Below are positions 35,004-39,651 of a DNA stretch of 40,386 bases, in pieces. The position numbers were made by a program, and so were the translations under genes. The stretch's first letter is position 1. Every line of letters starts with the position of its first letter. The DNA is from a virus: positions 1-40,386 of IMG/VR virus record IMGVR_UViG_3300037541_000317; one strand, written 5' to 3'. Below the pieces are notes generated by a model. That model worked only from the letters and a program-made list of their open reading frames with translations, was not told where the DNA came from and did no database searches.

Positions 35004-35314
35004 TTCAAAACCCTCCACTCGATATTCGGATACAGGGCGACGGCGAGCTTCCACTTGAGCTTCCAGTCGCGGGTCTCGAATCCCTTCTGGTCAGCGAGCA
35101 CGCGCTTCCCCTTTTCAAAGAATGCGAAGTCGGGTCGGAGCGCGCATATCTTCGTCCCGTTGACCACGAGGGGCACCGTGACTTGACGCTCTAAGCCGGA
35201 TATCTGACCGGCGCGCTCCAACAGCTTGAGTTCGGACCATCTCCGATACTCGGCCTGCGAATCCCATCGGATGCCGTCGGCGTCTACGAAGGGTTTGTTG
35301 CGGTACTTTTTCAA
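35000..35314 (-). CDS. DUF1064 nuclease-like protein
   Basis: 104 residues. KKYRNKPFVDADGIRWDSQAE, YRRWSELKLLERAGQISGLERQV, LRPDFAFFE and VLADQKGFE carry the conserved words of DUF1064, a PD-(D/E)XK-like family of phage replication modules (Glu in SQAE, Asp in RPDF, D-Q-K). Probably resolves or trims DNA intermediates. Confidence 0.82.
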   Translation of the reverse strand: MKKYRNKPFVDADGIRWDSQAEYRRWSELKLLERAGQISGLERQVTVPLVVNGTKICALRPDFAFFEKGKRVLADQKGFETRDWKLKWKLAVALYPNIEWRVLK

Positions 35315-36201
35315 GCCGCCGCCTCGCGCCCAAACAAGTCATCTTGGCGGTCTTGCGCCTCAAGGTAACGGACGGCCTGCCTCCAATAGCTCTCTTTGAG
35401 TTCCGTTCCGACAAACCGCCGACCGAGTTTGAGCGCCGTCACACCCTCGCTTCCGATCCCAGTAAATGGCGACAAAACGATATCTTCCGGGTTGCTCCAC
35501 ATAATCAGCGCACGCTCGATTACGTCGAGTTGAAGCGGGCACAAATGCCGCTCGTCTCCAGCTTCGCGTGCGGCTTTGACGTTCAAGACGTTGGATTGGT
35601 CTACGCTCATCCATACCGGCGAGGCCCATTCCTGCCACTGATCGAGCGGAAAATTCTCAGGAGTGTGGACGATGGGGGATGCGTTCTCGCCGGGCTTGAT
35701 AAACGTAATCAGATAGTCAGGCATACCGCCGCGCGACTTGCTGCTATCCTTCATAAGTTGCTTGTAAAGAAGCCCGACATGTTTAGTCCGCGTCATTTCA
35801 ACAACCGGGCATTTCCAGATCGTCCGCCGCGAATGCATGATCCATCCGGCGTCTTCATGAATGCGGATAATGTCCCCGGAAAAATCCTTTATCCCAACCG
35901 CGCCGTCCTTCCACTTGGTCATCGGAAGGTCTGAGCAATGCACGGCGGTCAGTCTGCCGGGCTTGGTAACTCGGAACTTTTCTTTCACCAGCCATGCGTA
36001 GTGCTTGGCAAATTCGTCATCGGTCGAATTGCCCATGTCGGCGGCGCTTTCCGAATAGACAAAAAGTGACCCGAACGGCGGCGAATAGACGGAAAAATCA
36101 ATCGACGCATCCGGCATTTGCCGAACGATATCGACGCAATCCCCGTTGTACGCGGCGAACCTTGCGCCGTGCGCCTCGTTTAGGCAGCGGATTTTAGCCA
36201 T
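35311..36201 (-). CDS. Amino-group DNA methyltransferase, beta class
   Basis: 296 residues. Motif IV SPPFG (residues 40-44) comes first and motif I FTGIGSEG (about 248-255) last, the beta order. The SPP(F/Y) form is frequent in N4-cytosine enzymes but also occurs in adenine ones. The target is unknown. It overlaps the helicase gene upstream by 22 bases. Likely protects phage DNA from host restriction. Confidence 0.85.
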   Translation of the reverse strand: MAKIRCLNEAHGARFAAYNGDCVDIVRQMPDASIDFSVYSPPFGSLFVYSESAADMGNSTDDEFAKHYAWLVKEKFRVTKPGRLTAVHCSDLPMTKWKDGAVGIKDFSGDIIRIHEDAGWIMHSRRTIWKCPVVEMTRTKHVGLLYKQLMKDSSKSRGGMPDYLITFIKPGENASPIVHTPENFPLDQWQEWASPVWMSVDQSNVLNVKAAREAGDERHLCPLQLDVIERALIMWSNPEDIVLSPFTGIGSEGVTALKLGRRFVGTELKESYWRQAVRYLEAQDRQDDLFGREAAA

Positions 36202-38102: not shown

Positions 38103-38365
38103 GCCGCCTCGCTTTCCGCCGCAGGGGCGACAAGATCGAGCGCCGCCATATCCTCGGCAATCTCGGTGCGCACTTCCTCGGCCTTCATCGCGGGGTTTTC
38201 CGAAAGCAGCACGTCTGCGGCGCGCTTGATCGAGCGGTGCTTGAAGCCCTGCCCCGTAACTTCCTTGCGAAGCGCGGTCATGTCCTGAGATAGCGCCTTC
38301 TGTTCGCGCATGATGTTCGCAACGCGCTCGATAAACGCTTTCTGAATTTCGTTGATGTTGCTCAC
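38099..38365 (-). CDS. GapR/DUF2312-like protein
   Basis: 88 residues from a GTG at 38365 (GTGA overlap with the upstream stop). NEIQKAFIERVANIMREQKA, LSQDMTALRKEVTGQGFKHR is the helical start of the GapR/DUF2312 family, alphaproteobacterial DNA-binding proteins that track overtwisted DNA. Shorter C-terminus than GapR and with an acidic tail. It may act on phage replication forks. Confidence 0.65.
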   Translation of the reverse strand: MSNINEIQKAFIERVANIMREQKALSQDMTALRKEVTGQGFKHRSIKRAADVLLSENPAMKAEEVRTEIAEDMAALDLVAPAAESEAA

Positions 38366-38775
38366 GCTGCTGCCCTCATGTCTGTGCCGAGTTGTTCGTA
38401 AATTGCGGAAATTCCGCACTCGCTGCGCGCGTAGCGAAGCGGCAACTTGAGCAGGTTCGGGATGTAGCGGGAGCCGTCGTGGCGACTGCGGGGATCGTTC
38501 TCGAACCAGATTTGAAGCGAGGCCCACTTGGCGAGCGCGGCGGCGTCACGGTCGCGGCGCGTCGTCTCGTCGCGGTCGATGAATTCCGGCGCGTCGGCTT
38601 TCGGTGTGCGAAGTGCGCGCTCGGCCTCGCGACGACGGGCCTTGTACGCACGTTCCCGCCTTACGCGGTGTTCGTGCTTCCACGTTAGAACCATGTCGAG
38701 CGGGACGCCGAATTGCTTGGCGATCGAGATAGGCGTGCGACCGCCTTGGAGACATGCGCGCTCGAATGGGGTCAT
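38362..38775 (-). CDS. HTH-containing hypothetical protein
   Basis: 137 residues. The start (TPFERACLQGGRTPISIAKQ, FGVPLDMVLTWKHEHRVRRE) is a helix-turn-helix; an Arg/Ala-rich helical middle follows and the end (WFENDPRSRHDGSRYIPNLL) is a compact conserved-looking piece. The ATG at 38775 overlaps the methyltransferase stop reached after the frameshift (38772), which helps identify that stop as genuine. Confidence 0.65.
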   Translation of the reverse strand: MTPFERACLQGGRTPISIAKQFGVPLDMVLTWKHEHRVRRERAYKARRREAERALRTPKADAPEFIDRDETTRRDRDAAALAKWASLQIWFENDPRSRHDGSRYIPNLLKLPLRYARSECGISAIYEQLGTDMRAAA

Positions 38776-39651
38776 GCGGTCATTCCTTCGGCTTGGGCGA
38801 TGGCGCGGCCAATGAGTTCGGGGATTTGCGGGACGACGGCGTTTCCGAGTGCGGCGATTCGATCAGCGTCCAGTCGAGCGGGAATCCCATCATTTGTTCT
38901 ACGAATCGGGGGTTCAGACGGCCATCCCAGTTCATGCTTAAATTGATTTGCTTCCCGATCTTCATGCGGCGTTGAATGGCCGGATTGGATGGCCCCCCCC
39001 CGGTCGCGATTGTCCGAAGCCTGCGGCGTCGGCAATAGCCCGTTGCGGCGCATCACCCCCCCCATGACGCAACCCCAATTCCCAGTACTCGGCCACGGGC
39101 GCATATTGTTTTGGTCTTGCCTCACGGGCGTAGGCAACAATCCAAATTCGCTCCCGTCGATGATTGGCCCCAAGGTGGGAAGCCGGTATGCAATGCCATT
39201 CCGCATCAAACCCGACTTCGGCCAAGTCCCCGAGTATTCGGCCAAACCATCCGCCAGGTTGTTCACTTGGGCCACCAAGCAACGCTGCGACGTTCTCCAA
39301 GATGATGAAGCGGGGGCGTAAGTCGCGAGCAAGGCGGATGACTTCTCGATAAAGTCCGCTCCGCGTGTCGCCCTCAATTCCAGCTTGGCGACCGGCTTGG
39401 CTAATGTCCTGACAAGGGAACCCGCCGCAGATTGCGTCAACGGCAATTCCATCTGCGGCAAGTCTGTCTGCGGTGAGAGTGCGGATGTCATCGTATTGCG
39501 GAACCTCGGGCCAGTGTTTCGCCAGCACCTTTCGGCAAAAGGGGTCGATCTCGCAGAAGGCGACCGTCTTGAACGCGCCGCTGCGCTCTAGGCCGAGGGA
39601 AAACCCCCCGATCCCGCTGAAAAGGTCGAGCAGGCGAAACGGCTGTTTCAT
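38772..39651 (-). CDS. C5-cytosine DNA methyltransferase, frameshifted at a G tract
   Basis: Motif I LLDLFSGIGGFSLGLE, motif IV CGGFPCQDIS (catalytic Cys80), ENV in FIILENVAALL and motif VIII NHRRERIWIVA are all in the first frame (39651 to 38962). Motif X (RIAALGNAVVPQIPELIG) lies one frame over and ends at 38772, exactly where the next gene starts. Removing one G from the 9-G tract (rc 38993-39001) joins the parts into 292 residues. As written, the enzyme stops after NAA at 38962 and lacks motif X. Either a phase switch in the off state or a homopolymer error. Confidence 0.8.
38780..39491 (-). CDS. Overprinted protein within the methyltransferase gene
   Basis: From the ATG at 39491 in the frame next to the methyltransferase. 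Contains SSSWRTSQRCLV, GTWPKSGLMRNGIAYRLPTL and LLPTPQASDNRDRG, the conserved words of a phage protein family often found with C5 methyltransferases. After the same one-base G-tract change it reads on as PSNPAIQRRMKIGKQINLS... NPRFVEQMMGFPLDWT, the expected end of that family, to a stop at 38780 (236 residues). Function unknown. Confidence 0.65.
38993..39001 (-). repeat. 9-base G tract at the frameshift
   Basis: Nine C on the plus strand. Eight would restore both overlapping reading frames. A second tract of eight C lies at 39056-39063. Confidence 0.85.

Follow-up and report, generated by a model that had tools for sequence, protein, structure and literature searches.

Overlapping genes of a phage locus that probably encode the two subunits of a cytosine-5 DNA methyltransferase, with widespread and mostly unannotated relatives

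The window analysed here is the whole of a 40,386-base metagenomic virus record, IMGVR_UViG_3300037541_000317. On its minus strand lies a predicted cytosine-5 DNA methyltransferase gene (A), and inside it, in frame +1, a second open reading frame (P0002) begins with the N-terminal part of a second protein, which we call B. As read, the two open reading frames (39651..38962 and 39491..38772) have 530 nt in common. The features of the locus, in the direction of the genes, are the following.

39651..38962, minus strand: gene A as read (229 aa; Pfam DNA_methylase), putative catalytic subunit of a cytosine-5 methyltransferase
39633-39586, minus strand: motif I of A
39504..39507, minus strand: GAGG, 12 nt ahead of the ATG of B and a candidate ribosome-binding site for it
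39491..38772, minus strand: second open reading frame, P0002 (239 aa), frame +1 of A
39002..39491, minus strand: N-terminal part of B, frame +1 of A (phrog_1008, 8.7e-14, and family conservation)
39491-39489, minus strand: start ATG of B
39426-39400, minus strand: motif IV (PCQ) of A
39305-39276, minus strand: B element SSWRTSQRCL
39297-39280, minus strand: motif VI (ENV) of A
39233-39177, minus strand: B element SGTWPKSGLMRNGIAYRLP
39162-39127, minus strand: motif VIII of A, which is then out of frame from the G9 tract onwards
39143-39126 and 39038-38997, minus strand: LLPTP elements of B
39056..39063, minus strand: G8 tract lying in both frames, without effect on the frame
38993..39001, minus strand: G9 tract at which both frames are lost (G8 in the relative L004)
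38772..38992, minus strand: C-terminal part of A, now in B's frame (match to phrog_363 253-317)
38780..38992, minus strand: C-terminal part of B, shifted into the third frame (phrog_1008 259-286, 1e-6)
38923-38867, minus strand: motif-IX-like element of B, GRLNPRFVEQMMGFPLDWT (profile match to motif IX)
38894-38859 region, minus strand: GIPARLDADR, at the motif IX place of A
38852-38799, minus strand: motif X of A, ALGNAVVPQIPELIGRAI, frame-shifted in the window copy
38362..38775, minus strand: next gene; its ATG overlaps, as ATGA, the stop at the end of the A-type C-terminus

The window also holds a second likely DNA methyltransferase gene (35311-36201, minus strand; YNGDCVDIVRQMPDASIDFSVYSPPFGSL), which by its motif, judged by eye, is of the N6/N4 type.

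A sequence-only reading of this locus had proposed that two frames of one strand carry conserved words of phage families, that both lose their C-terminal half at the same place, and that taking one G from a 9-G tract mends both. Profile matches bear out the first two points. The A open reading frame matches Pfam DNA_methylase (2.1e-42) over profile positions 1-167 of 324 only, and phrog_363 at 52-232 only, and the missing methyltransferase end (phrog_363 253-317) is found in the C-terminal half of P0002. The N-terminal half of P0002 matches phrog_1008 at 67-175 (8.7e-14), and the missing phrog_1008 end (259-286, LNPRFVEQMMGFPLDWT, 1e-6) is found in the third frame, at 38965..38780. A therefore passes into +1 and B from +1 into +2, which is the same shift for both, and since a stop at 39055 closes the third frame and a stop at 38964 closes A's frame, the shift must lie between these two positions. 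There, the alignment with the closest relative (L004, 72% identical to the window in DNA and intact in both frames) has a single gap, which falls in the tract, G9 in the window (39001-38993) vs. G8 in L004; the proposed one-base repair is thus the state found in L004. No second mutation was seen in either frame of the window copy, and the methyltransferase end with motif X runs, as had been read, to a stop at 38774-38772 that overlaps the ATG of the next gene (38775). C8/G8 matches occur three times in the window, all within the A/B gene, but 2.6 are expected by chance, so the tract alone is unremarkable.

Comparative evidence indicates that B is a real coding sequence, and the proposal that both frames are genuine is supported by +1 conservation, synonymous constraint, dN/dS, and B-less controls. 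Of 164 loci, 162 have the B frame lying over A in +1, as do all 80 loci fetched by A alone, with a methyltransferase of another subgroup (some of these contigs being common to the earlier sets). Over a span defined by A, in loci fetched by A, the +1 frame is free of stops in 48 of 58 and the +2 frame in none. Under synonymous-codon shuffles of A, the B span stays free of stops in 1.4 of 131 cases; this test is partly circular, as the span was taken from B's own open reading frame, and the count over the fixed, A-defined span is the fairer one. Constraint on A's synonymous sites follows the limits of B: among pairs 85–97% alike, four-fold synonymous divergence is 0.34 before B, 0.11 inside it, and 0.41 after it, and at B's stop it goes from 0.18 in the last six codons before the border to 0.58 in the next six. 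When substitutions are counted by their effect on both frames, a check that the sequence-only reading had suggested, B has a dN/dS of 0.41 and 0.31; the corresponding values are 1.58 and 0.77 in the +2 frame, which is not used, and 1.0 and 0.64 in the part of the +1 frame that precedes B. The start of B is conserved as well. Its ATG, formed within A's Y-[DE]-D motif (TAT then G, or GAT then G), is present in 105 of 131 loci vs. 66.5 expected, ribosome-binding-like 4-mers precede B in 94 of 131 vs. 42 expected, and many relatives have GGAGGT upstream of B, inside A's WPEV codons. The case that the sequence-only reading had named as refuting, an intact methyltransferase with stops throughout the second frame, did not arise: near relatives of the window have B open, and a closed +1 frame was found only in distant, B-less methyltransferases, such as the ordinary alphaproteobacterial enzymes, all 30 of which are without B and have 5–31 stops in +1. 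That B is an untranslated frame, open by chance or composition, is scarcely credible: long chance frames do arise in G+C-rich DNA, and the G+C content of the span is 0.58, but the shuffles, the sharp-bordered constraint, the dN/dS values, the conserved start site, and the 30 B-less controls together refute this reading.

Given its motifs and predicted structure, A is a cytosine-5 DNA methyltransferase with an M.HhaI-type catalytic fold. Motifs I, IV (PCQ), VI (ENV), VIII, and X follow in order (in the window, X in the shifted frame), and A aligns throughout with a profile of ordinary enzymes (1.7e-56). The AlphaFold model of a relative (A of L010) is confident for the catalytic domain and motif X and superposes on M.HhaI with a Z of 24.4 (202 of 327 residues, rmsd 2.6). 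A has no motif IX. At its place in the profile alignment A reads GRVADGVPxRVDR, where ordinary enzymes read LTxRExARLQGFPD, and with a motif-IX profile none of 131 A proteins reaches at least 4 bits, vs. 11 of 17 independent B-less enzymes. In addition, residues 185–267 of the L010 model, at the place of the small or recognition domain, have a pLDDT under 50, so that A does not show the motif IX and folded recognition domain that the single-chain form carries in one chain.

B ends in LNPxWVEWLMGFPxGWT, and in a profile comparison with ordinary enzymes its sole match longer than 3 columns was to motif IX, a short and weak one (17 columns, E 0.054). The motif-IX profile is matched at 4 bits or more by 17 of 121 B proteins. 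This element stands 12 codons before the GNA of motif X in 78 of 112 loci, on the same DNA where A should carry its own motif IX. In some actinophages (L001 and L296) the B frame extends into motif X, and A has its stop after motif VIII. The AlphaFold model of B is poor (pLDDT 62, pTM 0.28), and the fact that no structural match was listed for it excludes nothing. Searches of Pfam, NCBIfam, and PADLOC gave no known domain in B, and sequence comparison gave no relative with a solved structure; a search for restriction-modification relatives of B on plasmids returned only a handful of methyltransferase genes and no other lead. Within the B family alignment (A2), two to four WPTPxAxD elements lie in a stretch that is variable in both frames, and these are possibly a recognition module. 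Many of the LLPTP elements of the B frame arise where A's motif VIII (WIVAYP) is read in +1.

Because A is without motif IX and a folded small domain, and B has a motif-IX-like end at that very place, and given the split form in actinophages and the parallel with M.EcoHK31I, we take B to be the small subunit. A and B are thus likely the two subunits of one cytosine-5 DNA methyltransferase of the M.EcoHK31I type, as judged from sequence, models, and analogy. In such an enzyme, B would be started from its own internal ATG within the A gene, in the +1 frame. A would be the catalytic subunit, contributing AdoMet binding, the PCQ loop, ENV, and motif X, and B would bind to A and give the small-domain function, with its motif-IX-like end, and would probably have a part in recognising DNA. 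Methylation of the phage DNA by this enzyme would most likely serve to evade restriction by the host. The G9 tract of the window copy would throw both subunits out of frame together, and as it disrupts both, the sequence as written should not yield a working enzyme.

On the other hand, B could be a real overprinted protein with a separate job, such as an inhibitor, a regulator, or an anti-restriction factor, and A an enzyme complete in itself, whose recognition region is small and unusual. This we consider improbable, even though B is without a known domain or solved relative, its resemblance to motif IX is weak, and the overlap by itself locks B to A with no need of a shared function. A separate job would leave A wanting both motif IX and a folded small domain, and does not sit well with a motif-IX-like end placed on the DNA of the missing motif, or with a B frame that extends into motif X in some actinophages.

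Cytosine-5 methyltransferases of two polypeptides include M.EcoHK31I (YGGCCR) and M.EaeI. The large gene of M.EcoHK31I encloses that of the small polypeptide, which is read in a different frame. The nesting is common to A/B, where it was computed in the +1 frame for the two sets of loci given above (162 of 164 and 80 of 80). In M.EcoHK31I, motifs I–VIII and X are in the large polypeptide and motif IX is in the small one (PMC3404938); A too has motifs I–VIII and X without IX, a likeness drawn from the description of that enzyme. However, the recognition domain of M.EcoHK31I has been placed in the large subunit, not the small one (PMC3404938), whereas the region there in A is predicted to be unfolded, and this placement is a point against B as a small, recognition-bearing subunit. 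A/B also differ from M.EcoHK31I in that they are found in phages and prophages, where no restriction partner was seen, and in the repeated WPTP elements of B. M.AquI (alpha, beta) is another cytosine-5 methyltransferase split in two polypeptides (PMC3404938), as A/B appear to be. Its small subunit has both motifs IX and X, whereas in A/B motif X stays in A; the actinophage forms with motif X in the B frame are closer to M.AquI. This split form, known from the phages Firecracker (gp6/gp5) and ArV1 (067a/067b), is seen in L001 (1969-2972), L296 (903-2373), and L179.

The extra base of the window is part of a wider pattern. Two other broken copies, L005 (G10) and L030 (G9), are also broken at a G-tract and are shifted in the same direction as the window, while intact copies include L058 (G9) and L029 (G12), the latter 91.8% identical to L005 over 1078 bases. 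In two families, relatives have tracts of unequal length (9 vs. 8; 10 vs. 9 and 12), which makes the tract a slippage site. Each of the three clean frame breaks falls at a tract of at least nine Gs, and no break occurs in the 136 loci that have no tract (p = 1.7e-4, a rough value as related loci were counted separately), so the tract is the place of frame loss. Breaks at tracts are, however, predicted alike by sequence error, a dead allele, and phase variation.

The ninth G may well be a homopolymer error of sequencing or assembly, with both genes intact in the real phage. The window comes from a metagenomic virus record, the break is exactly at a homopolymer that is G8 in the intact L004, and the pattern of three breaks at nine or more Gs and none in the 136 tract-less loci is what such errors would leave. 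Yet tracts of G9 (L058) and G12 (L029) were assembled in frame, and short-read sequencing seldom errs on nine-base homopolymers. A real, fixed loss-of-function mutation in the window phage is a more doubtful cause. Inactive copies do exist in the data, as a nonsense codon in L337 (TGG to TAG, 2190-2193) interrupts A alone and leaves B intact, one base from L338, and this copy is either a natural A-only knockout or itself an error. But the other two breaks are also at G-tracts, which points to slippage or error, and the window is free of a second mutation in either frame. Lastly, the poly-G tract in the shared DNA could be a phase-variation switch in which one-base slippage toggles both subunits together, and close relatives do differ in tract length with on and off states: L005 (G10, off) vs. 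L029 (G12, on) at 91.8% identity, L058 (G9, on), and the window (G9, off) vs. L004 (G8, on), with L030 (G9) off. We think such a switch unlikely. Two lengths within one population are not in evidence, few members carry long G-tracts, and pattern scans at the two known tract sites gave no alleles beyond the contigs already in the set. Enrichment of G-tracts in the overlap is modest and in part due to related sequences, and we do not take it as proof of phase variation.

Hundreds of phages and prophages carry the A/B pair. B lies over A in all 44 matches in bacterial genomes, from groups as diverse as Alphaproteobacteria, Planctomycetota, Bacillota, Bacteroidota, and Desulfovibrio, and A/B are found in cultured phages of Mycobacterium, Arthrobacter, Paenibacillus, Salmonella, Klebsiella, Acinetobacter, Sulfitobacter, Synechococcus, and Microcystis. 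Since B is wide over the A family and absent from all 30 of the ordinary enzymes, the pair is a trait of one broad family and not of methyltransferases generally. Annotation mostly overlooks it. Overlapping pairs with the same +1 nesting are annotated in Firecracker (gp6/gp5), ArV1 (067a/067b), and the Paenibacillus phage Shelly (55/56, the latter with the record note “g55 internal gene”), where the role of B is limited to “methyltransferase” or “hypothetical.” Many records annotate just A, among them Salmonella S9-5, Klebsiella KlebP_265, Acinetobacter ABMM1, and Sulfitobacter phiGT1. Pfam and NCBIfam offer no model for the B family, although all 62 B relatives match phrog_1008. In PHROG, the families to which A and B belong (phrog_363 and phrog_1008) are both labelled “DNA methyltransferase,” and the labels are silent on the two sharing DNA or forming one enzyme. 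No published account of the A/B overlap in phages was found in the literature searched, though one may exist still.

We regard A/B as new members of a kind of two-subunit methyltransferase that is known but seldom recognised; they are widespread and for the most part unannotated, and of further interest in that one tract could switch both subunits. If this is correct, the second subunit of a large share of phage cytosine methyltransferases is absent from most annotations, and the cloning of a recoded A would silently abolish B and give a dead enzyme. A/B are also a clear and very common example of long dual coding on one strand, found in phages or prophages of many bacterial phyla, and so a good test bed for the origin and persistence of overlapping genes.

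The B frame itself takes several forms. In the enterobacterial and Acinetobacter form (L298 1180-1925, L294 1272-2186), B begins MSWLFSQAL and starts upstream of A's motif I; of the four copies in E. coli prophages, two share 94.5% identity with the one from the Salmonella phage. Another type of B is found in the L170 family genomes (L215-L242), in +1 over another methyltransferase subfamily, and spans the methyltransferase including motif I. Its N-terminal half differs (MTWLYLPPxCLPEPxTxASSASRS..., SWRGWKTRPWI), and its C-terminal half is as in the first type, with WPTP repeats and LNPLFVEALMGWPTGWT.
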